Shown: positions 372-11,859, counted from the first letter of the stretch. The stretch: DNA of 64,000 bases from Streptomyces tendae (GCF_008632955.1 NZ_CP043959.1:3410001-3474000), one strand, 5' to 3'. The notes: generated by a model not told the origin, from the letters alone. Made by a program: numbers and translations.

Positions 372-514
372 AGCTTCACACACGGTGGTGCAGAAAGTGA
401 TCAAGTGCCCGCATGTCCACCGGACTTCGCGGCAGAACCGCCTGCCGCGCCGCCGCCCTCGCCGTGCCGCCGCCGAGTGCCGTTGACGCGCACCGTGGGG
501 CCGACTACCTTTCA

Positions 515-532
515 CTAGAATCGCGATTCTAG
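515..532. promoter_or_regulatory. Palindromic operator CTAGAA-N6-TTCTAG upstream of SDR gene
   Basis: The 18 bases here form a perfect palindrome, CTAGAATCGCGATTCTAG, 44 bp before the likely GTG start at 576. The same CTAGAA-N6-TTCTAG architecture recurs at 9145-9162 before the catabolic operon, and a weaker copy at 2058-2075 before the TetR gene. It is the probable binding site of that TetR protein (inference). Confidence 0.75.
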
Positions 533-575
533 AGGAATTGTTCGGATCAAGCCCGTGACCCAGGAGCAGCGCACC

Positions 576-1286
576 GTGACCGAAGCACACCCCACCGCCC
601 TCGTGATCGCCGGCAGCAGCGGTATCGGCGCCGCCTCGGCGCGTGAACTGGCAGCACGTGGGCACCGGGTGGCGGTGCTGGCACGCGGCGAAGGGGCGGA
701 CGCGCTGGCCGGGGAACTGGGCGGTCTCGCCCTCCGCGGCGACTACACCGAACCCGGGGTCGTCGAGGGCGCCGTCGAGCAGGTGCTCTCCGCCTGGGGG
801 CGGCTGGACGTGCTGGTCAACAGCGCGGGTCACGGCCCCAAGGGGAAGCTGGAGGAGCTGACCGACGAGGACTGGGCCACCGGGTTCGACCTGTACTTCT
901 ACCACGTGGTGCGGGCCTGCCGTGCCGCCCTGGCCCCGATGCGCGCCCAGGGTGGAGGCAGCATCGTCAACATCTCCTCGGCCAGCCCCGGCGAGCCCTC
1001 GCCCCGCTTCCCCACCTCCATGGTGGCCCGGGCCGCGATGACGACCTGGACGAAACTGTGGGCGGACGAGGTCGCCGCCGACGGCATCCGCGTCAACAAC
1101 GTGCTCCCCGGCTATACCGTCGCCGACCCGGAGACCGTGCCGGCCGCCTGGACCGCCAGCATCCCGCTGGGCAGGGCCGCCGCCTACCAGGAGGTGGCGC
1201 GGGCAGTGGCCTACGTCGCCTGCGACGCCACGTACACCACCGGACAGAACCTCCGGGTCGACGGCGGACTCACCCGCGGCGTCTGA
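576..1286 (+). CDS. SDR-family oxidoreductase-like protein lacking the YxxxK catalytic pair
   Basis: This is a classical-length (about 236 residue) short-chain dehydrogenase/reductase fold. It has an N-terminal nucleotide-binding loop IAGSSGIGAA, an NSAG motif, the IVNISSAS serine strand and a C-terminal RVDGGL segment. The position that normally carries Tyr-x-x-x-Lys reads SMVAR, so Tyr is Ser and Lys is Arg. Either the reaction does not use the usual proton relay or the protein is not a standard dehydrogenase. GTG 576 is preferred because AGGAG lies 9 bases upstream; GTG 555 is an alternative seven codons earlier. The gene stands alone behind a palindrome shared with the aromatic catabolic operon, so it probably belongs to that regulon, perhaps acting on a related ring or side chain. 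The substrate is unknown. Confidence 0.8.
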   Translation: MTEAHPTALVIAGSSGIGAASARELAARGHRVAVLARGEGADALAGELGGLALRGDYTEPGVVEGAVEQVLSAWGRLDVLVNSAGHGPKGKLEELTDEDWATGFDLYFYHVVRACRAALAPMRAQGGGSIVNISSASPGEPSPRFPTSMVARAAMTTWTKLWADEVAADGIRVNNVLPGYTVADPETVPAAWTASIPLGRAAAYQEVARAVAYVACDATYTTGQNLRVDGGLTRGV

Positions 1287-1292
1287 CTCACC

Positions 1293-1311
1293 CGTCCCGC
1301 CGGGCGGGACG
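1293..1311. terminator. Hairpin between convergent SDR and TetR genes
   Basis: CGTCCCGC, a 3-base loop, then GCGGGACG form a perfect 8-bp stem. It lies in the 32-bp gap between two converging genes, so it can end both transcripts. There is no T-run, as is usual in Streptomyces. Confidence 0.6.
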
Positions 1312-1318
1312 CGAGGGG

Positions 1319-2005
1319 CTACCGCTCCCCGGCCGCCCGGCGGGCGTGGTCGTCCACCAGACTCTCCAGCGCCCGCGCGGCCAGGTCCGCGTACTCGGCG
1401 AAGTCCAGCTCCAGGTGCACCTCGGAGTTCGCGTGGACGTAGAGGCCGTCGGTCAGCGCCAGACTCAGCACCGTGAGCTTGGTGGGCAGATCGGGGAAGC
1501 GCTCGGTGACGTCGGCGGGGACGGACTCGGTGATCCGCGCGACGTCCACCCTGAACATCTCCACCCGCATCCGCAGGTATGCCGCACGGACCTCGCTGTC
1601 CTCGCCCAGGCCGCCGAGCTGCCGGCTCAACGCCCAGACCGCCGCGGCCTTGAGCAGCGCCTCCTCCTTCGTGTACTGCTCGGGGTCGGCCCCGGACAGG
1701 CCGGTGATGCCGCGCGACAGTTTCTGACGCAGCCCCTCGGGCCCGGAGTGGATCTCCATCCACACCTCGTAGCAGTGCTCGAGCAGGGCGACGAAGAGCT
1801 GCTCCTTGCTCTTGAAGTGCCAGTAGACCGAGCCGATGGGCAGACCGGACTCGGTGCTGACGGCCGCCATCGTCGTGCCCTGGTAGCCGTGCTCCAGCGC
1901 CAGGTCCAGCGCCGCACGCAGGATCTGCTCCCGGCTCCGGCCCGTACGCGCCTGCCGCGTGCCCTTGCCCCTGGTGCCGCCGCTCTGCCGTGTGCCCTGC
2001 TCCAT
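1319..2005 (-). CDS. TetR-family regulator, likely repressor of the aromatic catabolic operon
   Basis: A 228-residue TetR-type protein. The N-terminal helix-turn-helix reads TTMAAVSTESGLPIGSVYWHF, followed by KSKEQLFVALL, and the C-terminal ligand-binding half is all helical. ATG 2005 is chosen because AGGGG stands just upstream; an earlier in-frame ATG at 2056 has no ribosome binding site and would abut the operator-like sequence at 2058-2075. The gene lies directly downstream of the seven-gene aromatic operon on the same strand, separated by a long hairpin. The shared palindrome before the operon, the SDR gene and, imperfectly, this gene suggests that it represses all three and itself. The inducer is probably an aromatic acid or ring-cleavage intermediate. 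The family is certain; target and inducer are inferred. Confidence 0.88.
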   Translation of the reverse strand: MEQGTRQSGGTRGKGTRQARTGRSREQILRAALDLALEHGYQGTTMAAVSTESGLPIGSVYWHFKSKEQLFVALLEHCYEVWMEIHSGPEGLRQKLSRGITGLSGADPEQYTKEEALLKAAAVWALSRQLGGLGEDSEVRAAYLRMRVEMFRVDVARITESVPADVTERFPDLPTKLTVLSLALTDGLYVHANSEVHLELDFAEYADLAARALESLVDDHARRAAGER

Positions 2006-2057
2006 GCCGCCCCTGTCGCCGTGTCGTGCGTGCCCCACGTTCAGTGAAGTGCCCATT

Positions 2058-2075
2058 CTAGAACCCGGCTACTAA
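2058..2075. promoter_or_regulatory. Degenerate copy of the CTAGAA-N6-TTCTAG operator before the TetR gene
   Basis: The left half CTAGAA is exact and the right half reads TACTAA (4 of 6 match) at the same 6-base spacing. It sits 53 bp before the chosen TetR start. A weaker site at the regulator's own promoter would fit autoregulation. Confidence 0.5.
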
Positions 2076-2127
2076 CGGGTCCGGGACCGAAAGGGCACAT
2101 CTGTACGCCCATTCGGTCCCGGACCCG
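2076..2127. terminator. Long hairpin ending the aromatic operon
   Basis: Positions 2076-2091 and 2112-2127 are perfect inverted repeats (16 bp), with a further GGGC/GCCC pairing inside the loop. The hairpin lies just after the hydroxylase stop at 2167 and before the TetR gene, so it separates the two transcripts. Confidence 0.7.
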
Positions 2128-2166
2128 GTGCGCACCGTCCCACGCGGGGCCGGGGCCGCGCCGCCG

Positions 2167-3780
2167 TCACACGGCGCAGGCGGCCGCCAGGACCCGGGCC
2201 GCCACGTCGTCGAGCTCCTGGGTCAGGCACTCGGCGGCGATCACATGGTCGGGGCGGAGGATCACCGCGCCCACCGGCCGCGCGTCGAACCACGCCTGGA
2301 GGCCCGCCTCGCCGCCGAGGTCGCCGACGACGGTGACGCCGGCCGTGGCCTGCTCGCGCGCCCACGGCAGCTGGGCCTTCGGCACCACCTGCACGAGACG
2401 GGCGCCGAGCCGGTCCAGCGCCACACGCCGCTCGGCCGACAGGAACGCCGTCGGGTCGTTGTTCCAGGTGAGGATCCGCCAGCCCTGACCGGTCGCGTCG
2501 TCGAGCAGCATCTCGACGCCGTCGGCGTCGGTGGCCCTCGGCTGCGGGAAGATCGTGCCCGCCAGCCGGGGCACGTCGCGGACCGGCAGCGACTTGGACA
2601 CCGGCAACGGGGTGTGCACCACCACGCCCCGGTCGAACTTCGGCTGCGGCTTGAACGCCTGCCGCTTCTGCGCCTCCCGCTCCTCGGGCGTACGGGAGGC
2701 GGCGATCCGGTCGCGCTCGGCGGCCTTCTCGGGGTCGTGGTCCGTCATCTCCTTCGCCATCCGGAGGGAGACGGCCACCATCTGCGTGACATGACCGAGC
2801 CGTTCGGTCTCGTACGTGTCCAGCAGACCGTCGGCCGCCAGCCCCTTGACGACGGCGGCGAGCTTCCAGCCCAGGTTGAAGGCGTCGCGGATCCCCGAGT
2901 TCCAGCCCTGTCCGCCGACCACCGGCATGACATGGGCGGCGTCACCGGCGAGGAAGATCCGCCCGTGCCGGAACCGGCCCGCGATGCGGGCGTGGTGACG
3001 GTAGACGCGGCGGCGGATGATGTCGAGCTTCGACGGGTCCGGCACGTGGGGCGCGAGCAGGGCGAACACGAACGCGTCGTCCTCGACCTCGGCCTCGCCC
3101 TCGTGCTCGAAGAGGGTGAACTCCCAGCGCCGGATGCCGTGCGGCAGCGCGATGGAGGCGTAACTGCGGGCGGGATCACCGCCGAAGACGGCGTGGGGCG
3201 TGCCGATCGGGTCGTTGGCGACGTCGATGACGATGCCGTCGGTCGGCCGGGTCTCGCCCTCGAACGAGATGCCGAGACGCTTGCGGGTGGGGGAGGACCC
3301 GCCCTCGGCGGCGACGGCGTATCGCGCGCGCACCGTCCCGCCGTCCGCGAGCGTGGCGACCACACCGTCGGCGTCCTCGGTCAGGTCCACGACCTCGGCG
3401 CCGAAGCGCACGGCTGTGCCGGGGAAACGGTCGAGGCCGGCGAGCAGCACCCGGTCGACCAGCGGCTGCACGAAGCCGTTGCGGCGCGGCCAGCCGAACT
3501 CACGTGTCGTCGGGTTCACTTCGGACAGGATCGCCCCGGCACCGTTGATCATGTAGATCTTCTGGTCCGGGATGGTGTGCGGAAGCACCTCGTCGACCAG
3601 GCCGGCGGTCTGCATCGCGCGCAGTGCCTCGTCGTCGATGCCCACGGCCCGCGGGTAGTCGACGAGTTCGTGCTCCCGCTCGACGACCAGTACGTCGATG
3701 CCCTGCTGCCCCAGCAGGTTGGCCAGGGTCAGGCCGACCGGACCCGCCCCGACGACGAGGACGTCGCAGGCCTTGTTCAT
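2167..3780 (-). CDS. FAD-dependent aromatic hydroxylase (MhpA-like, 3-(3-hydroxyphenyl)propionate hydroxylase family)
   Basis: A 537-residue class A flavoprotein monooxygenase. The N-terminus has the ADP-binding GAGPVGLTLANLLG loop, the middle has the second FAD motif FLAGDAAHVMPVVGGQG, and a thioredoxin-like C-terminal domain follows. Length and domain order match E. coli MhpA (about 550 residues). It would hydroxylate a phenolic acid to a catechol using NAD(P)H and oxygen, supplying the substrate of the ring-cleaving dioxygenase in the same operon. Its ATG overlaps the aldolase stop (ATGA at 3777-3780), showing translational coupling, and it is the last gene of the operon. The true substrate, phenylpropionate or another hydroxyaromatic, cannot be read from sequence. 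Confidence 0.88.
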   Translation of the reverse strand: MNKACDVLVVGAGPVGLTLANLLGQQGIDVLVVEREHELVDYPRAVGIDDEALRAMQTAGLVDEVLPHTIPDQKIYMINGAGAILSEVNPTTREFGWPRRNGFVQPLVDRVLLAGLDRFPGTAVRFGAEVVDLTEDADGVVATLADGGTVRARYAVAAEGGSSPTRKRLGISFEGETRPTDGIVIDVANDPIGTPHAVFGGDPARSYASIALPHGIRRWEFTLFEHEGEAEVEDDAFVFALLAPHVPDPSKLDIIRRRVYRHHARIAGRFRHGRIFLAGDAAHVMPVVGGQGWNSGIRDAFNLGWKLAAVVKGLAADGLLDTYETERLGHVTQMVAVSLRMAKEMTDHDPEKAAERDRIAASRTPEEREAQKRQAFKPQPKFDRGVVVHTPLPVSKSLPVRDVPRLAGTIFPQPRATDADGVEMLLDDATGQGWRILTWNNDPTAFLSAERRVALDRLGARLVQVVPKAQLPWAREQATAGVTVVGDLGGEAGLQAWFDARPVGAVILRPDHVIAAECLTQELDDVAARVLAAACAV

Positions 3781-4550
3781 GTGGTGCTCCGTGCGGATCG
3801 TGCCGGGCCGAGCCCGGCGATGGTGTCGCCGAACGCGCGGTTCAGCAGGACGAGATCGATGCCGAGGCCGACGTAGTCGACGAGGCCGTCGGCGAACAGG
3901 CGGGCGGCGTACTCCGGACGGCCGGAGTAGATGCCGAGGGTGACGCCGTGCGCGCGCGTCACCTCGCGGAGGTGAACGATCGCCTCGCGCACCGGGCCCT
4001 CCTCCCAGTCGCCGCGCCCGGGCAGGCCGTAGGAGACGGCGAGGTCGGCCGGGCCGATGTAGACCGAGTCCAGGCCGGGGGCCGAGACGATCTCCTCGGC
4101 CCGGTGGACTCCGGTGCTCGTCTCGATCTGCGCGACGGCCGACACCGCCCGGTTGCCCGCGTCGGTGTAGGAGTCTCCCGGGTACAACGCGGGCCGGGAG
4201 GGGCCGAGACTGCGGTTGCCGGCCGGCGGGTACTTGGTGGCGGCGACCAGGGCCTCGGCCTGGGACCGGGACTCGACGGTCGGCGCGACGATGCCGCGGG
4301 CCCCGCTGTCCAGGAGCCGCAGGACCGGCGCGGGGTCCAGCGAGCCCACCCGGGCGTACGCGTAGGCGTTGTCCCGGGGGATCGAGCGCAGGATCCCGCA
4401 GGCCGCCTCCAGCCCCAGCTCCCCGTGCTGGAGGTCGAGGATCACGCCGTCGTAACCGGCGGCCACCGCCCACTCCGGCACCGAGAACGCCGGGACCGTC
4501 TGGTGGTACAGGATCGGATGCCGTCCGCCGCCGAGAGCGTCCCGCTTCAC
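3777..4550 (-). CDS. HpcH/HpaI-family aldolase
   Basis: A 257-residue class II pyruvate-type aldolase. Recognisable blocks are DGVILDLQHGE near residue 35, a RVGSLDPAPVLRLLDSGARGIVAP strand, QIETSTGV carrying the metal-binding Glu, and YIGPADLAVSYG with the metal-binding Asp. Family members cleave 4-hydroxy-2-oxo acids to pyruvate and an aldehyde. In this operon it takes the place normally held by the MhpE/MhpF aldolase-dehydrogenase pair. GTG 4550 overlaps the preceding stop (GTGA), which fixes the start; the longer in-frame extension upstream is not coding in character. Coupled by 4-bp overlaps on both sides. The aldehyde product and any dehydrogenase for it are not evident. Confidence 0.85.
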   Translation of the reverse strand: MKRDALGGGRHPILYHQTVPAFSVPEWAVAAGYDGVILDLQHGELGLEAACGILRSIPRDNAYAYARVGSLDPAPVLRLLDSGARGIVAPTVESRSQAEALVAATKYPPAGNRSLGPSRPALYPGDSYTDAGNRAVSAVAQIETSTGVHRAEEIVSAPGLDSVYIGPADLAVSYGLPGRGDWEEGPVREAIVHLREVTRAHGVTLGIYSGRPEYAARLFADGLVDYVGLGIDLVLLNRAFGDTIAGLGPARSARSTT

Positions 4551-5017
4551 CGGGCCGGCCCTTCCTGTCCGGCCACGCGCGCCGCGTGGGCCGCCGCCGC
4601 CCGGCCGCCGAAGACCGGCACGATCTCCCGGCGGGCGAACAGCCACCGGCCGTCCACCTTGCGGTAGCGCTCGCGGAACTCACCGACCGACGCGGGCAGC
4701 GTCTGCGGCTCGCCCGTGTCGCGGAAGGTCAGGTACTGCACGGTGCCCTCGACCTCGTCCCCGTCCTCGGCCCACACCAGGCGGATCCCGCCGATGAAGT
4801 GACGGCCGACGACGTCCGTCTGCCGGGCCCGCCTGGCACCCCACACCTTCATGGCCTCGCGGTCCATGTCGCCCATCGGGCCGATGGAGACGCCGTCCTC
4901 GGTGTACAGCTCCCAGGTGGTGTCCGCGCGATGGTGGTCGAGGCGGTGAAGCATCTCGGTGACGAGTTGCTCGATCTCGACGCGGGTGATCGCGTCGACG
5001 GGACGGTAGTCAGTCAT
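4547..5017 (-). CDS. SnoaL-like / NTF2-fold protein
   Basis: A 156-residue protein with the cone-fold (SnoaL-like, ketosteroid-isomerase-like) pattern: an N-terminal helix EIEQLVTEMLHRLDHHRADTTWELY, then TEDGVSIGP, then beta strands around GRHFIGGIRLVW and FRERYRKVDGRWLFARREI. Such proteins act as small hydratases, isomerases or dehydratases, or as beta subunits of ring hydroxylases. The ATG at 5017 has GAAAGG 7 bases upstream. It sits between hydratase and aldolase genes, so a role on a ring-cleavage intermediate is likely, but E. coli mhp operons have no counterpart. It lacks features that would name the reaction. Confidence 0.78.
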   Translation of the reverse strand: MTDYRPVDAITRVEIEQLVTEMLHRLDHHRADTTWELYTEDGVSIGPMGDMDREAMKVWGARRARQTDVVGRHFIGGIRLVWAEDGDEVEGTVQYLTFRDTGEPQTLPASVGEFRERYRKVDGRWLFARREIVPVFGGRAAAAHAARVAGQEGPAR

Positions 5018-5019
5018 GT

Positions 5020-5814
5020 TCAGCCTTTCGAATCGGCGGTCGCGACCACGCGACCCAGCCCGGTGACGGTGGCGACGCACTCGACGTCGGCGGGCCACGG
5101 CTCGATGTAGCCGATGGAGCCCGACAGCAGCACCTCGCCGGCGCGCAGCGGCTCGCCGGTGCGCAGCGCGGTCCCGGCCAGCCAGACGACCGCGTTGACC
5201 GGGTCCCCCAGCACGTTGGCACCGACACCCCGGGTGATCTCCTGACCGCCACCGGTGATGACCATCTCGACCTGGGTCAGGTCGACCTCGCCGTACGGAT
5301 GCCGTTCCTCGCCGAGGACGACTCCGCTGCAGCCGGCGTTGTCCGCGATGGTGTCGACGATCTGCCCGACGGAACCGGCGTAGCGGAAGTCGACGACCTC
5401 GAAAGCGGGCGTCACGTAGTCGATGGCGGCCTCCACGCACGCACGGGAGGGCTCGAGGACGTCGCTCTTCAGCACGAACGCGACCTCCGCCTCGATGAGC
5501 AGGCGGTTGTACGCGGACAGCGGCAGGCGCGTGCCCGAGGGGTGCACCATGTCGTCGTGGATGATCCCGTAGTCCGGCTCGTCGATGCCCACGCGCTGCT
5601 GCACGAGGGCGTTGGTCAGGCCGACCTTGCGGCCCACCCGCCTCACCCCGAGTTCGCGTTCGCGCAGGGCGGCGAACTCGGCGGAGATCGCGTAGGCGGA
5701 GTCGAGGTCGCGCTCGGGCAGCCGGGGGCTCACGTACGGCACCGTGTACACGCCGCGCTTGGCCTCGAACAGCTCGCGCGCGATCTCGCTGATGGTCTCC
5801 CGGGTGACGCTCAC
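5020..5814 (-). CDS. 2-keto-4-pentenoate hydratase (MhpD-like)
   Basis: A 264-residue member of the 2-oxopent-4-enoate hydratase / fumarylacetoacetase-like family (E. coli MhpD is about 269). It shows the conserved GRKVGLTN block, the acidic EAEVAFVL segment that binds the divalent metal, then VDFRY, DNAGCSGVVLG and a C-terminal GEVLLSGSIGYIEPWPAD stretch. It adds water to the dienoate left after C-C hydrolysis, giving 4-hydroxy-2-oxovalerate or a homologue for the aldolase. GTG 5814 is chosen because AAAGGA stands 6 bases upstream; an upstream ATG would overlap the hydrolase gene without a binding site. Third from last step of the meta-cleavage route. Confidence 0.88.
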   Translation of the reverse strand: MSVTRETISEIARELFEAKRGVYTVPYVSPRLPERDLDSAYAISAEFAALRERELGVRRVGRKVGLTNALVQQRVGIDEPDYGIIHDDMVHPSGTRLPLSAYNRLLIEAEVAFVLKSDVLEPSRACVEAAIDYVTPAFEVVDFRYAGSVGQIVDTIADNAGCSGVVLGEERHPYGEVDLTQVEMVITGGGQEITRGVGANVLGDPVNAVVWLAGTALRTGEPLRAGEVLLSGSIGYIEPWPADVECVATVTGLGRVVATADSKG

Positions 5815-5827
5815 TCCGGTCCTTTCG

Positions 5828-6712
5828 TCAGGCATGCTTCTGGAGGAAGGCGACCGCCGCGGCGTTGAACTCGGCGGCACCCTCCCACTGCGGCCAGTGC
5901 GCGGCGCCGCGGACCAGCAGGTACTCGCCGTCCGTGATCAGCCCGCACAGGCGCTCGCCCTCGGCCTCGTCGCCGGTCGGCTCGTTGTCGGTCCACACCA
6001 TCAGGGCGGGGACCGGGACGGCCGCGAAGTCGTCGTCGGTCACGCGGTTGCGCCAACGCCGCTCCGGCTCCCGCAGCGCGGACACGTTCGCCATGCTGAA
6101 CCCGTCGCGGGCGTAGATCGCCTGGCGGACGCGGACCAGCTCGTCGGTGATGTTCCGCGGGTCGTGGATCACGACCTGGAGACGCTTCCTCACGTTCTCG
6201 AAGGTCGGCTCGCTCACCGCCTTCGCGCTCACCGACTGGGTCCGGTCCAGCTGCGGTTCGCCGATCACCCGGCCGCCCGGCGCGGACAGGATGACCGTGC
6301 GCAGACGTTCGGGGTGCTTCGGCGCGAACTTCAGCGCCAGCCAGCCGCCGAGCGACTCACCGGCGAGGTGCACCCGGTCCAGCTCCAGCGCGTCGAGCAG
6401 CGCCAGCAGGTGCTCCTCGTAGTCGCGGATCTCGAGCGGGTGGTCGGCGAGCGCGGTGTAGCCGTGGCCCGGGTAGTCGTAGCCGACCACCCGGAAACCG
6501 GCCTCGGCGAACGCGCGGACGTTCTGCGTCCACGCCTCGATGTGGCCGCTGGTGCCGCTGGCCAGGACGACCGTCTGCGCGTCCGGGGACGCCCCGGCGA
6601 TGTCGAGGACCCGGGTGCGGCAGCCGCCCGCGTCCACGTACCGCAGCGCGTGCTCCAGGTCCGCGATCTCTTCCCACAGGGTCGCCAGGTGCGCCCTCTC
6701 CGCCCCGCTCAC
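5828..6712 (-). CDS. Alpha/beta-fold hydrolase, meta-cleavage product C-C hydrolase (MhpC-like)
   Basis: A 294-residue alpha/beta hydrolase. The nucleophile elbow is GESLGG (Ser of G-x-S-x-G), the oxyanion segment is near ASGTSGHIEAW, and the catalytic His is in the late GAAHWPQWE motif. Length and position match MhpC (288 residues), which splits the vinylogous diketone made by extradiol cleavage into succinate or fumarate (or an analogous acid) and a 2-oxopentadienoate. The GTG start overlaps the dioxygenase stop (GTGA at 6709-6712), which gives translational coupling. Neighbouring dioxygenase and hydratase genes make the assignment to a ring-cleavage pathway firm; the exact substrate is open. 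Confidence 0.86.
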   Translation of the reverse strand: MSGAERAHLATLWEEIADLEHALRYVDAGGCRTRVLDIAGASPDAQTVVLASGTSGHIEAWTQNVRAFAEAGFRVVGYDYPGHGYTALADHPLEIRDYEEHLLALLDALELDRVHLAGESLGGWLALKFAPKHPERLRTVILSAPGGRVIGEPQLDRTQSVSAKAVSEPTFENVRKRLQVVIHDPRNITDELVRVRQAIYARDGFSMANVSALREPERRWRNRVTDDDFAAVPVPALMVWTDNEPTGDEAEGERLCGLITDGEYLLVRGAAHWPQWEGAAEFNAAAVAFLQKHA

Positions 6713-7644
6713 GCCGTCACCGCCGCCTGCACGGCGAAGCCCGCGCCCCACTTCTCGACCGCCCAGTAGCGGTCGACGGCGAAGCGGTAGGGTCCGGCGG
6801 TCGACAGGGCCGCGTAGGCCGCGATCCAGCTGCGCATCTCGTGCGCGGCCGAGCCGCCCTCCGCCACGAACCAGCCGTTCTCCCAGCCGTCGGCCGGGGT
6901 GAGGTCGCCGGAGCGGAACGTGTCGAGGACGAGCTTGTCCCACTCCTCGTTCAGCGGGTCGCTCGGCGCCTTGCCGTCGGCGATCGCCCGGATGCCCTTG
7001 ACGATCATCTGCTCGCGCTCGTGCCGCTCCTCGGGGGAGGGCGCGTAGGCGACCAGACGTTCCCGCACGGTGCCCGGGGCGCCGTCCCAGCGGGGGATCG
7101 GGGGGTTGTGGGAGATGCCGCCCGAGGCGAGGAACAGCACCTTCTTGTCCAGGGCCCGGGCGGCCCGGCCGAACGCCTCGCCCATCAGGCGCACCCGCCG
7201 CATGGGGGAGAGGGGCAGGCCGATCGCGTTCACGAACACCGGCACGATCGGTTGCGTGAAGTCCTTGCCGAACACGAAGTCCAGGGGCTGGACGATGCCG
7301 TGGTCGACCGTCATCCGCTCGCTGCGGCCGATGTCGATGCCCTCGGCCAGGACGGCGGCGTGCAGGGCCCGGGCGGCGTCGGCGTCGACGGGGAGCGGCC
7401 CCGCGGTGGTGCCGTAGTCGCCGATGCCCTCGGCGACCGCTCCGATCACCCACGGGGTGATCAGCGAGTAGAGCTGGCCGTTGAAGTGGTCGGGCCCGAA
7501 CACCACGACGAGATCGGGGTCGTACGCGGAGACGAACTCCCTGACCTCGTCGATGGCGGCATTGATCTCGGCGAACGTCTCCCCGCCCGGGTCGACGTTG
7601 CCGAAGGACGGCGCGTGGGAGAGCGCTGCGACGGCCAGCGGCAT
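6709..7644 (-). CDS. mhpB: Extradiol ring-cleavage dioxygenase, 3-carboxyethylcatechol 2,3-dioxygenase type (MhpB-like)
   Basis: A 311-residue type II (LigB superfamily) extradiol dioxygenase, very near E. coli MhpB in length (314). It begins MPLAVAALSHAPSFGNV with the iron-binding SH pair and has FGPDHFNG, the active-site block TVDHGIVQPLDFVF, and LASGGISHNPPIP. It opens catechol rings next to the diol using Fe(II) and oxygen; the MhpB type acts on 2,3-dihydroxyphenylpropionate and dihydroxycinnamate. AAAGGA precedes the ATG at 7644. Second gene of the operon, right after the transporter. Because all downstream meta-cleavage enzymes follow it, this is the defining enzyme of the locus. Confidence 0.9.
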   Translation of the reverse strand: MPLAVAALSHAPSFGNVDPGGETFAEINAAIDEVREFVSAYDPDLVVVFGPDHFNGQLYSLITPWVIGAVAEGIGDYGTTAGPLPVDADAARALHAAVLAEGIDIGRSERMTVDHGIVQPLDFVFGKDFTQPIVPVFVNAIGLPLSPMRRVRLMGEAFGRAARALDKKVLFLASGGISHNPPIPRWDGAPGTVRERLVAYAPSPEERHEREQMIVKGIRAIADGKAPSDPLNEEWDKLVLDTFRSGDLTPADGWENGWFVAEGGSAAHEMRSWIAAYAALSTAGPYRFAVDRYWAVEKWGAGFAVQAAVTA

Positions 7645-7680
7645 GGTGCTGGTTCCTTTCTGGGAGGGTGCGGACGGCCG

Positions 7681-9045
7681 CTAGGCGGACGTGCCGGAGA
7701 GCGCGGGTTCGGGGCGCTGGGCCTCGCCCGCGTCGGGGCGGCGCTGGGCCAGGTGGAGGACGATGATGCTGACGCCGGCGAGCAGCATCGGCAGGGAGAA
7801 GACGGTGAAGGCCACGCCCGTGCCCCAGCCGGCGTCGAAGGCCGCGCCGCCGATGACCGGGGCGGCGATGCCGCCGAACCGGCCGACGCCGATGACCACA
7901 CCGAAGCCGGTCGAGCGGGCCAGCGTCGGGTAGAGCGTCGGGACGATCGTGTAGAAGGCCGCGGTGCCCGAGCAGACGAAGAAGGAGGCGGCGAACAGGG
8001 TCCACCAGGCGGTGGGCATCTGGGAGCCGATGATGCCGAACAGCGACAGGGTGAAGGTGGCCAGGAGCAGGAAGACGGGGGCGAGGACGCGGATGCTGAT
8101 CCTGCCGCCCAGGTAGCCGAAGAGGACGTTGCCGAGGATGCCGCCGATGCTGAAGGCGGTGACGAGCTGCGGGGCCAGCGCGGGGTTGTCGTTGGCGGAG
8201 GCCACGCTGCTGGGGGCCCAGTTGGTCATGAAGTAGAAGCTGAGCATGTAGGCGATGTAGCCGACGATCATCAGCAGGGTGTAGACGCCGGTCCGGCCGG
8301 TGAAGACGGTGCGCAGCGAGCCCTTCGCCTTGACTCCCGTGGACTCCGGCACGGGAAGCGCCGTGAGCGCGGGCCGGTGCATCTTCGCGAGCAGCGCGTT
8401 GAGCCGCTGCAGGGAGTCGGGGCGGCGGCCCTCGGAGAGCCAGGCCAACGACTCGGGCAGCAGCGCGTACGTGGCGACCGCGGCGATCGCGCTGAGGACG
8501 AACCCGATCCACCAGCCGAACTGCCAGCCGCGGGCGTCGAGCATCGGGCCGACGATCATCGAGCCGAGCAGTCCGCCGATGTTGATGGCGGCGGCGTAGA
8601 CCGCCATGACCAGGGCGTACACCCGCTTGCCCGTGTACTCGGTGAGGATGACGCCGACCACGGCCACCAGACAGCCGACTCCCACGCCGGTGACGATGCG
8701 GCTCAGGACCAGGGGCCAGGTTCCGGTCTCCGGAGTGGCGAACGGGCCGATGAACATGCCCACCGCGATCGTCGTGGTGGCGATGACGCCCATCTTGCGC
8801 CGGCCGATGCGGTCGGCGAGCGGCGCGACGATGATCGAACCCACGAGCATGCCGATCAGGGCGCCGGACATGACCAGTCCGAGTTCCGCCTTCGAGACGC
8901 CGAAGCCCCTCTCGATGTAGGGCGCGGAGAACGACGTGAGGGAGACGTCGTACCCGTCGAGCACGACCAGGGTGATCGCGATGACGACGGCGCGTTTCTG
9001 CAGCCCGCTCATTCTCTCCTGCGGGATGTGGTCGGTGATCCTCAT
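7681..9045 (-). CDS. MFS transporter, aromatic acid:H+ symporter (AAHS) type
   Basis: A 454-residue major facilitator protein with 12 likely membrane segments. The first helix carries the AAHS signature VVLDGYDVSLTSF, the loop after helix 2 reads GSIIVAPLADRIGRRKMG, and a long charged central loop sits near residues 210-250. AAHS proteins (PcaK, BenK, MhpT) import aromatic acids with protons. The start at ATG 9045 is supported by AGGGGAA upstream; a longer frame to 9135 would run through the leader. First gene of the catabolic operon, 99 bp downstream of the CTAGAA-N6-TTCTAG operator. Most likely the uptake system for the acid degraded by the following enzymes. Confidence 0.88.
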   Translation of the reverse strand: MRITDHIPQERMSGLQKRAVVIAITLVVLDGYDVSLTSFSAPYIERGFGVSKAELGLVMSGALIGMLVGSIIVAPLADRIGRRKMGVIATTTIAVGMFIGPFATPETGTWPLVLSRIVTGVGVGCLVAVVGVILTEYTGKRVYALVMAVYAAAINIGGLLGSMIVGPMLDARGWQFGWWIGFVLSAIAAVATYALLPESLAWLSEGRRPDSLQRLNALLAKMHRPALTALPVPESTGVKAKGSLRTVFTGRTGVYTLLMIVGYIAYMLSFYFMTNWAPSSVASANDNPALAPQLVTAFSIGGILGNVLFGYLGGRISIRVLAPVFLLLATFTLSLFGIIGSQMPTAWWTLFAASFFVCSGTAAFYTIVPTLYPTLARSTGFGVVIGVGRFGGIAAPVIGGAAFDAGWGTGVAFTVFSLPMLLAGVSIIVLHLAQRRPDAGEAQRPEPALSGTSA

Positions 9046-9144
9046 GCGGGTTCCCCTGTTCCGGGACAGAGCGGACCGACGCCGGGGCGGCGGCCCGCAA
9101 AGGAGGAGGCGGAACGCTGACCAGCCGCGTTCCATCGACGAAAC

Positions 9145-9162
9145 CTAGAAGTTACGTTCTAG
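9145..9162. promoter_or_regulatory. CTAGAA-N6-TTCTAG operator of the aromatic catabolic operon
   Basis: CTAGAAGTTACGTTCTAG has exact 6-base arms with the same spacing as the site at 515-532. It lies about 100 bp before the transporter start, within the leader or promoter of the seven-gene operon. The overlapping TTCTAGAA at its right end extends the symmetry. Confidence 0.75.
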
Positions 9163-9360
9163 AATCGCCATTACAGTGACGAGCGGCCGGGGGTGGTGTC
9201 AAGGGGTGGCGGGTGATCGGTTGAAAGTGCGGACGCGCGGAGCGGAAAGGTCCCGACGCATGTGTCGGTAACATCCGATAGGATGCCGACGCTCGTGTCG
9301 TCAAGTGCGAGTAAAGGGCGTGCGTGCCGCGCCCCCCTCTCCCCGCAGCCCGGAGTTCCC

Positions 9361-10488
9361 GTGTTTCTTGCCCTACGCGATCTGCGCTTCGCCCGCGGCC
9401 GCTTCGCCCTGATGGGCGCCGTGGTCGCCCTCATCGCCGTCCTCGGCGTCCTCCTCTCGGGGCTCGCCTCCGGACTGGCGGACGCCGGTATCTCCGGGCT
9501 GCGCGCGCTGCCCGTGACCCACATGGCCTTCGACGGGAAGGCGACCAGCGAACAGTTCTCCCGTTCCACCGTGGAGCAGGAGGACTGGGAGGCCTGGTCC
9601 GAGGCCCCCGGTGTGAAGCGGGCCGAACCGTTCGGCAACGCCCTGGTCAACGCCCAGGTGACCCAGGGCGGGCAGAAGGGCGAGCAGGTCAACCTCGCCG
9701 TCTTCGGCATGGCGCCCGACTCGCCCCTGGCCCCGAGCCCCGGGGAGGGGAAGGGGTTGAAGGACGGCGGTGGCGGCATCGTCATCACCCAGGAGATCGC
9801 CGACCTGGGCGTGCGCGTCGGGGACGTTCTGACCGCCGACAAGAGCGAGGTCAGGCTGACGGTGGTCGGCCTCGTCGACGACACCGTCTCCTACGGCCAC
9901 ATCGGTGTCGCCTACGCCGACCTCGACACCTGGCGCCACCTCCACTACGGCCTGCCCGGCGCGCTGCCCGAGGCCGCGCTCCGCCAGGCCACGGCCGTCG
10001 CCCTGACCCTGGAGGACGGCGCCGACGTCACCGCCGTCGAGAAGGCCACCGGCACCCGCGCCGACAGCAAGGAGACCACCTACGGCGCGTCTCCCGGCTA
10101 CACGGCGGAGTCCAGCACCATGGCCCTGATCAAGGGCTTCCTCTACGCCATCTCCGCCCTGGTCGTCGGCGCCTTCTTCACCGTCTGGACCGTCCAGCGC
10201 AAGCCCGAGATCGCCCTGCTGAAGGCGCTCGGCGCCCCCACCGGCTACATCCTGCGCGACGCCCTCGCCCAGGTCGTCGCCGTCCTCGTCGCCGCCACGG
10301 CCGTGGGCACCGCCGCCGGTCTCGCCCTGGGCAGCGCGATGATCGGCAAGGCGCCGTTCTCCCTGTCCGCCCCCGCCATCGCCACGTCCGCCGGCCTGCT
10401 CATCGGCCTGGGGACCGTGGGCGCCGTCGTCGCCGTCCGCCGCATCACCGCCGTCGACCCCCTGACCGCCCTGGGAGCCACCCGATGA
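9361..10488 (+). CDS. ABC transporter permease, FtsX/MacB type
   Basis: A 375-residue permease with one N-terminal membrane helix (residues about 15-37), a large extracellular domain of about 200 residues, and three C-terminal helices (TMALIKGFLYAISALVVGAFF, then DALAQVVAVLVAATAVG, then ATSAGLLIGLGTVGAVVAV). This is the FtsX-like layout of lipoprotein or lipid exporters and antimicrobial-peptide pumps. GTG 9361 has GGAG 5-6 bases upstream; an ATG-like start 33 codons earlier would lie in the leader. Its stop overlaps the ATPase start (ATGA), so the two are made together. Substrate unknown. A TetR gene follows the pair and may control it. Confidence 0.88.
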   Translation: MFLALRDLRFARGRFALMGAVVALIAVLGVLLSGLASGLADAGISGLRALPVTHMAFDGKATSEQFSRSTVEQEDWEAWSEAPGVKRAEPFGNALVNAQVTQGGQKGEQVNLAVFGMAPDSPLAPSPGEGKGLKDGGGGIVITQEIADLGVRVGDVLTADKSEVRLTVVGLVDDTVSYGHIGVAYADLDTWRHLHYGLPGALPEAALRQATAVALTLEDGADVTAVEKATGTRADSKETTYGASPGYTAESSTMALIKGFLYAISALVVGAFFTVWTVQRKPEIALLKALGAPTGYILRDALAQVVAVLVAATAVGTAAGLALGSAMIGKAPFSLSAPAIATSAGLLIGLGTVGAVVAVRRITAVDPLTALGATR

Positions 10489-11201
10489 CCACGACCAGCA
10501 CCGACCACCGGGCCGCCCCGGACGCCACCGGCTCCGGCGGGCTGCGCCTGCACGACGTCAGCCTGACCCTCGGTGACGGCGACACCGCCGTCACCGCCCT
10601 CGACCACGTCGGACTGACCGTCGCCCCGGGCGAGTTCGTCGCCGTCGTCGGCCCCTCGGGATCCGGCAAGTCCAGCCTGCTCGCCGTCGCGGGGGGACTC
10701 CAGCGGCCCACCTCGGGCGCGGTGCACATCGCCGGCACGGAGCTGACCGCCCTGTCCGACAAGGAGCGCACGGCGGCCCGCCGGCGCCACATCGGTTTCG
10801 TCTTCCAGCAGTCGAACCTGCTTCCGTCCCTGACCGTACGGGAACAGCTCCTGCTGCCCCTGCACATCGACGGACGCCTGGACGCCGCGGCCCGGACCCG
10901 GGCCGACGAACTCATCGAGGCGGTCGACCTGGCGCACCGCGCCGGCTCCCGCCCGCACCAGCTGTCCGGAGGCGAACGCCAGCGCGCCGGTCTGGCCCGC
11001 GCCCTGATGACCTCACCCGCCGTCCTGCTGGTGGACGAGCCCACCTCCGCGCTGGACCGGGAGCGATCCGCCGAAGCGGTACGGCTGATCGCCGAGCAGA
11101 CCCACCGGCACGGCACCGCGACCGTCATGGTCACCCACGACACGGCGATAATGGACGCCGCCGACCGGGTGCACGAGATGGTCGACGGCCGGCTGTCCTG
11201 A
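10485..11201 (+). CDS. ABC transporter ATP-binding protein, LolD/MacB type
   Basis: A 238-residue ATPase. It shows Walker A GPSGSGKSS, Q-loop FQQSNLLP, the signature LSGGERQRAGLARAL, Walker B VLLVDEP followed by TSALD, and an H-loop His in MVTHD. The sequence between Q-loop and signature is that of the LolD/MacB group, whose partners are FtsX-type permeases, in agreement with the overlapping upstream gene. A 22-residue N-terminal tail rich in Thr, Ala and Gly precedes the domain. Powers the neighbouring permease; the exported compound is not known. Confidence 0.9.
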   Translation: MTTTSTDHRAAPDATGSGGLRLHDVSLTLGDGDTAVTALDHVGLTVAPGEFVAVVGPSGSGKSSLLAVAGGLQRPTSGAVHIAGTELTALSDKERTAARRRHIGFVFQQSNLLPSLTVREQLLLPLHIDGRLDAAARTRADELIEAVDLAHRAGSRPHQLSGGERQRAGLARALMTSPAVLLVDEPTSALDRERSAEAVRLIAEQTHRHGTATVMVTHDTAIMDAADRVHEMVDGRLS

Positions 11202-11259
11202 ACCGGGCGGCCGGCGCCGTGCCGCCCGGCCCCGTCCGTCAGCCAGGAGTCCCGCCCGC

Positions 11260-11859
11260 ATGCCGAAGATCAACGCCGCCACCGTCGCCGAGCACCGTGC
11301 GCACCAGCGCGAGACGCTGATCGGCGTGGCGATCGACATCCTGGTGAACGAGGGCGCCGCCGCCGTCACCCCGGCGGCGGTCGGCGCCCGCGCGGGCCTG
11401 GCACGCTCCAGCGTGTACCAGTACTTCGACTCCTCGGCGGCCCTGCTGGCCACCGTCACCGAGGAGGCCTTCCGGCGGTCCAACGAGGCACTCGCCCGCG
11501 CGATGGCCACGGCGGAGGGCCCGGTGGAGCGGGTCGAGGCGTTCTTCCGGGAAAGTCTGCGCCTCGGTGCCGAGGGCGCCCACCGGCCGGCCGCCGCCCT
11601 CATGAACGCCGGCCTCCCGCCCGCCTGCCAGGAGCGCCTGGTCGAGCTCCACCTGGAGCAGGTCGAGCCGTTCCGCGCGGCCGTCCGGGAGCTCGGCGCC
11701 CCGGAGCCCGCGCTCACCGCGGACCTGATCGCCGGGATGCTCCACACGGCCCTGGCCGCCGTGGACGGCGGTGCCCCGCTCGACACGGTCACCGGACGCA
11801 CGCTGGACCTGGTGCGACGCTGCCTCCGTCCGCACGACGGTGCGGCGGGTCCGGCATGA
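11260..11859 (+). CDS. TetR-family regulator following the ABC exporter
   Basis: A 199-residue TetR-type regulator. The helix-turn-helix reads AVTPAAVGARAGLARSSVYQYF. The C-terminal part is helical and poorly conserved. GGAG lies 10 bases before the ATG. It is 58 bp downstream of, and co-directional with, the FtsX/LolD-type genes, so the likely role is control of that exporter in response to its substrate. No clear shared palindrome was found to prove the target. Confidence 0.85.
   Translation: MPKINAATVAEHRAHQRETLIGVAIDILVNEGAAAVTPAAVGARAGLARSSVYQYFDSSAALLATVTEEAFRRSNEALARAMATAEGPVERVEAFFRESLRLGAEGAHRPAAALMNAGLPPACQERLVELHLEQVEPFRAAVRELGAPEPALTADLIAGMLHTALAAVDGGAPLDTVTGRTLDLVRRCLRPHDGAAGPA

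Follow-up and report, generated by a model that had tools for sequence, protein, structure and literature searches.

The question raised by this locus of Streptomyces tendae is whether one DNA motif, repeated before several promoters, brings a seven-gene aromatic-catabolism operon, a distant gene of the short-chain dehydrogenase/reductase (SDR) family and a TetR-family gene under common control. The locus lies in a stretch of 64,000 nucleotides (GCF_008632955.1, NZ_CP043959.1:3410001-3474000), hereafter the window. The motif, CTAGAA-N6-TTCTAG, is an 18-bp palindrome, and mismatches were counted against this consensus. From the distribution of its copies we infer that it is very probably the operator of a local TetR-family repressor (1319-2005), which would bind there, repress the operon, the SDR-like gene and its own gene, and respond to an inducer.

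A first, sequence-only reading of the window had reported perfect copies of the motif at 515-532 and 9145-9162 and an imperfect one at 2058-2075, with a TetR gene between them, and all of these positions were recovered. Operator O1 (515-532; CTAGAATCGCGATTCTAG) has no mismatches, and orthologous sites are found in relatives (L029-L037). Operator O2 (2058-2075; CTAGAACCCGGCTACTAA), next to tetR, has two mismatches, and its counterparts in nine relatives have one to three. Operator O3 (9145-9176) precedes the catabolic operon and is composed of two palindromes offset by 14 bp: the first (9145-9162; CTAGAAGTTACGTTCTAG) is perfect, and the second (9159-9176), which overlaps it in a common CTAG and was absent from the earlier reading, has two mismatches. 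These four palindromes are the only ones in the window with up to two mismatches. When three mismatches were allowed, nine matches were found against 2.0 expected from shuffled sequences, a number that was reached in none of 100 shuffles. There are exactly three copies of TTCTAGA in the 64 kb, one per site, and CTAG itself is depleted in the window (10 copies against about 158 expected from base composition).

Genome-wide scans were carried out by pattern matching, with no weight matrix. The 7.34-Mb source genome contains two exact copies only, those of O1 and O3, which bore out the proposal that the motif is long and specific enough for searches at this scale. Among 199 congeneric genomes the exact motif was present in three, and these were the same three that contain a homologue of the TetR protein (E<=1e-30); the probability of both other genomes coinciding by chance, with the source genome excluded, is about 5e-5. 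Rather than being common at unrelated promoters, all four exact copies in the 199 genomes were located within this system.

To follow the motif further, the TetR alignment was scanned against one genome per species (84,980 species), and 32 clear actinobacterial homologues were obtained (L029-L060). In nine close relatives the sites are kept before the transporter, tetR and SDR genes, the tetR site of one of them (L037) being degenerate, with three mismatches. The enzymes are only about 40-56% identical in Microbispora, Actinomadura and a Propionibacterium assembly; all three have sites before mhpB/tetR, and the two first-named also before the transporter. Other Streptomyces, together with Amycolatopsis, Agromyces, Nocardioides luteus and Microbacterium, have a different regulator type (TetR2) divergent from the transporter, with the site in between. 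In three Arthrobacter genomes and in Nocardioides nematodiphilus the only exact site of the genome lies ~20-100 bp before mhpB, and tetR either follows at a distance of about 10 kb or does not adjoin the site; in Georgenia the best site (one mismatch) is between the genes for a second SDR type (SDR2) and mhpB, and tetR is at a different locus. The Arthrobacter, N. nematodiphilus and Georgenia cases constitute the strongest support, since motif and regulator are not neighbours there. Overall, at least nine genera have kept the motif at orthologous promoters. Comparative genomics gives strong support to a regulon that would join the seven-gene operon, the SDR gene and tetR, and with it to the earlier suggestion that the distant SDR gene is tied to the operon: motif and TetR co-occur genome by genome, and the three promoters keep their site in close relatives.

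The best site over 57 promoter regions had no mismatches in 33, one in 15, two in eight and three in one. A second palindrome (up to three mismatches) exactly 14 bp away was present in 38 of the 57, against a mean of 2.5 and a maximum of 10 with shuffled flanks, and none was found at any other offset from 8 to 23. An offset of 14 is favoured by the common CTAG, which the shuffle control retains. With this partner in 38 regions, the double-operator consensus is therefore CTAGAA-N6-TTCTAGAA-N6-TTCTAG, in which one outer half-site is often degenerate. As far as the alignments indicate, the operator is usually a double palindrome with a 14-bp offset, which corrects the single palindrome described at first; O1, before the SDR gene, is a single palindrome with no such partner. 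When 393 sampled genomes were searched for the 32-bp double palindrome with two mismatches at most, eight genomes matched, six of which have the TetR; the other two (G147 and G351) contain two-mismatch matches and no TetR. An alternative arrangement was seen in four Streptomyces loci (L055:9892-9923, L053, L056 and L058), where the operator is expanded to CTAG repeats spaced by 7 bp (CTAGAATCTAGGTTCTAGGTTCTAGG).

The seven-gene catabolic operon is present as proposed, on the minus strand from 9045 down to 2167. Its first gene (7681-9045) codes for a major facilitator superfamily (MFS) transporter of aromatic acids, with a best NCBIfam match to TIGR00895 (aromatic acid/H+ symport; 259 bits, below cut-off). 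It is followed by genes coding for MhpB, a 3-carboxyethylcatechol 2,3-dioxygenase of the class III extradiol type (6709-7644; NF009910, 439 bits, above the curated equivalog cut-off of 291); an alpha/beta hydrolase resembling meta-cleavage product hydrolases of the MhpC/BphD type (5828-6712; Pfam and NCBIfam matches); a 2-oxopent-4-enoate hydratase-like protein of the MhpD type (5020-5814; catechol_dmpE, 174 bits, below cut-off); a SnoaL-like protein with no role assigned (4547-5017; Pfam SnoaL_4); an HpcH/HpaI-type aldolase (3777-4550; Pfam HpcH_HpaI); and an MhpA-type FAD monooxygenase (2167-3780). The last is most similar to 3-(3-hydroxyphenyl)propionate hydroxylase (612 bits against a cut-off of 853), and its second-best match also falls short (524 bits against 546). 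In many clusters of the TetR2 and Microbispora types (L052, L054-L057, L047 and L038-L040), MhpA is followed within about 2 kb by another FAD monooxygenase, which shares 34-38% identity with it; none was seen in the window cluster.

This enzyme set reads as a meta-cleavage route for 3-(3-hydroxyphenyl)propionate and 2,3-dihydroxyphenylpropionate, in agreement with the aromatic catabolism first attributed to the operon, and the repressor would then be released by a substrate or intermediate of the route, most likely a 3-(hydroxyphenyl)propionate or the 2,3-dihydroxy compound formed from it. A serious competitor, to which we give somewhat less than even chances, keeps the same regulon and takes a different substituted phenol as inducer and substrate, one whose side chain would be processed by the SDR-like and SnoaL-like proteins. 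The MhpA, MhpC and MhpD types resemble named families with scores under the curated NCBIfam cut-offs, the active site of the SDR protein is unusual, and to our knowledge neither SDR nor SnoaL genes belong to the classical Escherichia coli mhp route, all of which would suit such a substrate. Against it, MhpB scores above its curated cut-off, and the best families for MhpA are all 3-(3-hydroxyphenyl)propionate or 3-hydroxycinnamate hydroxylases.

How the sites would act can be judged from their position in the promoters. The core promoter of the SDR-like gene (483-511, plus strand) consists of a -35 box TTGACG (483-488), a 17-bp spacer and a -10 box TACCTT (506-511); in an alignment of 10 species TTGACG and a TAnnTT -10 are conserved. 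O1 starts four bases past this -10, over the expected transcription start. For tetR (minus strand), a -10-like TAGAAT is carried by ATTCTAGAA (2055-2063), adjoining O2, and is overlapped by the site. In the transporter promoter, O3 follows a TTGACA box (9197-9202, minus strand) that is invariant. The claim that a site stands before each promoter held for the SDR gene, the operon and tetR, with the exact -10 of the operon not assignable from the alignment. Sites at or downstream of the -10 are in a position typical of repression, and the geometry favours this mode of action. TetR dimers would occupy the CTAGAA-N6-TTCTAG sites, with room at most promoters for two dimers on palindromes 14 bp apart with the central TTCTAGAA in common, and, because the sites lie on core promoters, would block RNA polymerase at the seven-gene uptake and meta-cleavage operon, at the SDR-like gene and at tetR. 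A probable terminator, a hairpin with a 16-bp stem (2076-2127, minus strand; -45.7 kcal/mol, z -8.0), separates the end of the operon from the tetR promoter, and an inverted repeat is visible at its position in most relatives too.

TetR-family activators exist, and together with the unassignable -10 of the transporter promoter this leaves some room for a TetR that activates, or that represses at some sites and activates at others. We consider this improbable, since the SDR site just past TACCTT, over the expected start, and the tetR site over TAGAAT occupy repression-type positions. Slightly less probable still is that another regulator, global or pathway-specific and encoded elsewhere, binds the palindromes and that tetR is simply one of its targets. 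Such a protein would agree with the genomes in which some 10 kb separate tetR from the sites or the two occupy different loci, and TetR binding at the palindromes is itself deduced. However, the sampled Streptomyces that lack this TetR have no exact motif, the motif tracks TetR across genera, and a global regulator would need more sites than the two exact ones of the source genome. That the palindromes arose by chance or from base composition and play no part in regulation can be dismissed: short palindromes do arise by chance, and a reversed control pattern gave 3-8 matches per genome with one mismatch allowed, but CTAG is strongly depleted and the uniqueness of the motif, its restriction to this system together with TetR and its conservation at orthologous promoters reject such an origin.

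Repression by the local TetR protein is accordingly the preferred explanation; what the comparisons establish directly is where the sites lie, that they are unique and conserved, and that they occur together with TetR. Several points weigh against the explanation. The loci of the relatives were reached via TetR and are mutually related, so that the 57 sites are not independent. O2, next to tetR, is the weakest of the three sites, with two mismatches, and three in L037. Finally, the case of a changed helix of the regulator together with the absence of a close site near the mhp genes, in Rhodococcus (see below), is a single instance.

The regulator of the window (TetR1; 1319-2005, minus strand) is a protein of 228 amino acids with a match to Pfam TetR_N (56 bits). 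Its ATG is conserved in relatives; a longer open reading frame from ATG 2056 was rejected, since the relatives have the start at 2005 in common and 2056 lies inside the operator/-10. The predicted model is an all-helical TetR fold (mean pLDDT 84) that matches TetR-family structures, so that an N-terminal helix-turn-helix (HTH), an all-helical C-terminal domain and a palindrome at its own and neighbouring promoters are found together, as in TetR-family repressors with a local operator. TetR1 and TetR2 are about 41% identical, and the split between them is fully supported in the tree (100/100). They have the recognition helix GLPIGSVYWHF in common, bar an I/V/T change in a few members. On these comparisons, the operator is kept while the repressor has changed, with two deeply separated TetR types predicted at the same sites. 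In the Rhodococcus sp. HM1 homologue the helix is altered (GLPNGSIYYHF), and the two one-mismatch sites of that genome are both away from the mhp genes; that the altered helix goes with absence of the operator near these genes is suggestive only, the head of the operon not having been viewed directly.

The enzymes of window-type clusters are about 79-92% identical to those of TetR2-type Streptomyces clusters. Apart from members of their own group, the closest counterparts of their TetR and SDR proteins (about 62% and 73%, respectively) are those of the Microbispora type, whose enzymes are far less similar. Window-type clusters thus look like hybrids of TetR2-type Streptomyces enzymes and a Microbispora-type TetR/SDR pair. 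Some genomes contain both repressors; that of the window and four relatives have TetR1 only, and Streptomyces fragilis combines TetR2 with an SDR1 type. A remnant of TetR2 was looked for beside the transporter in the window, and none was found.

The SDR-like gene (576-1286, plus strand) codes for SDR1, a protein of probable SDR fold (Pfam adh_short_C2, 161 bits). GTG 576 was taken as its start, GTG 555 being rejected from the alignment, in which relatives have ATG at the place of the former. An SDR gene is a constant companion of the system: SDR1 stands beside tetR or has its own operator, and SDR2 either follows tetR2 or is transcribed divergently from mhpB. The protein resembles the SDR family but lacks its classical catalytic Tyr/Lys pair, YxxxK being replaced by SxxxR. 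All 26 aligned members, SDR1 and SDR2 (homologues from L029-L060 and L098), have Ser for the catalytic Tyr, Arg for the Lys and another residue for the Asn of the Asn-Ser-Tyr-Lys tetrad. Both types conserve instead a His (NSxGH-like) and an EP...P motif, and the nucleotide-binding loop is IAGSSGIG in SDR1 and VGGGSGIG in SDR2, against the classical TGxxxGxG. Because the catalytic Tyr, Lys and Asn are replaced, naming the protein an oxidoreductase is unsafe. Its nearest solved relative (PDB 4o6v, E 5e-63), presumably from Brucella suis, is an SDR-family protein with the same Ser/Arg replacements. Tentatively, this subfamily with a rebuilt active site (Ser/Arg and the NSxGH His) could carry out non-classical catalysis or be a nucleotide-binding accessory of the pathway, and its recurrence in different actinobacterial genera would then reflect a need for it in the pathway. 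The operator has led to regulon genes with a non-classical active site, which raises an enzymological question.

The cluster resembles E. coli mhp in that a transporter is combined with a hydroxylase, an extradiol dioxygenase, a hydrolase and a hydratase of the hydroxyphenylpropionate meta-cleavage type, with a local regulator dedicated to them. MhpR of E. coli is an IclR-family protein with operator GGTGCACCTGGTGCACA (PMC8222616). Here, in contrast, the regulator is of the TetR family rather than IclR, the operator is unrelated, the aldolase is of the HpaI type, and SnoaL-like and SDR-like genes are added. Among the fold matches of TetR1 is QacR (PDB 1jt0, a cooperative QacR-DNA complex), likewise with a TetR fold, an N-terminal HTH and an operator able to hold two dimers; what differs in our system is the second palindrome at a 14-bp offset with CTAG in common, where binding of two dimers is predicted only. 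By sequence profile the nearest solved structures are Mycobacterium tuberculosis AcrR (6a4l) and Rv0302 (5d18), 24-25% identical and also among the nearest by fold; we know of no link between these regulators and aromatic catabolism. Within the literature available for searching, no paper was found that deals with this operator or, for Streptomyces, with a TetR-family regulator controlling this pathway. A TetR regulon on an aromatic pathway is of a familiar kind, and two features deserve to be followed: the exchange of repressors at an operator that stays the same, and the rebuilt active site of the SDR protein. The operator is a specific, testable DNA code that finds the regulon of the pathway by sequence search alone in long-diverged genera, and a TetR/operator pair that responds to such an acid would lend itself to biosensor use.

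Beyond the cluster, the full 32-bp double palindrome was found upstream of an alpha/beta-hydrolase (esterase-like) gene in S. carpinensis (L056:15367-15398) and S. brasiliensis (L083:1487-1518), and this gene is a likely extra member of the regulon in both species. The best additional site of the source genome, with one mismatch (G000:C1:4203522-4203539; L025), 13 bp before an open reading frame of 181 amino acids, has no counterpart in seven related genomes and was not counted. Two-mismatch sites viewed at 524-531 kb and 4700-4707 kb of the same genome showed no link to the pathway. On the other side of O3, at 9358-11859, the window contains genes for an FtsX-like permease and an ABC ATPase and, after these, a further TetR-family-like gene (11260-11859); the ABC/FtsX pair adjoins the cluster in several relatives too.

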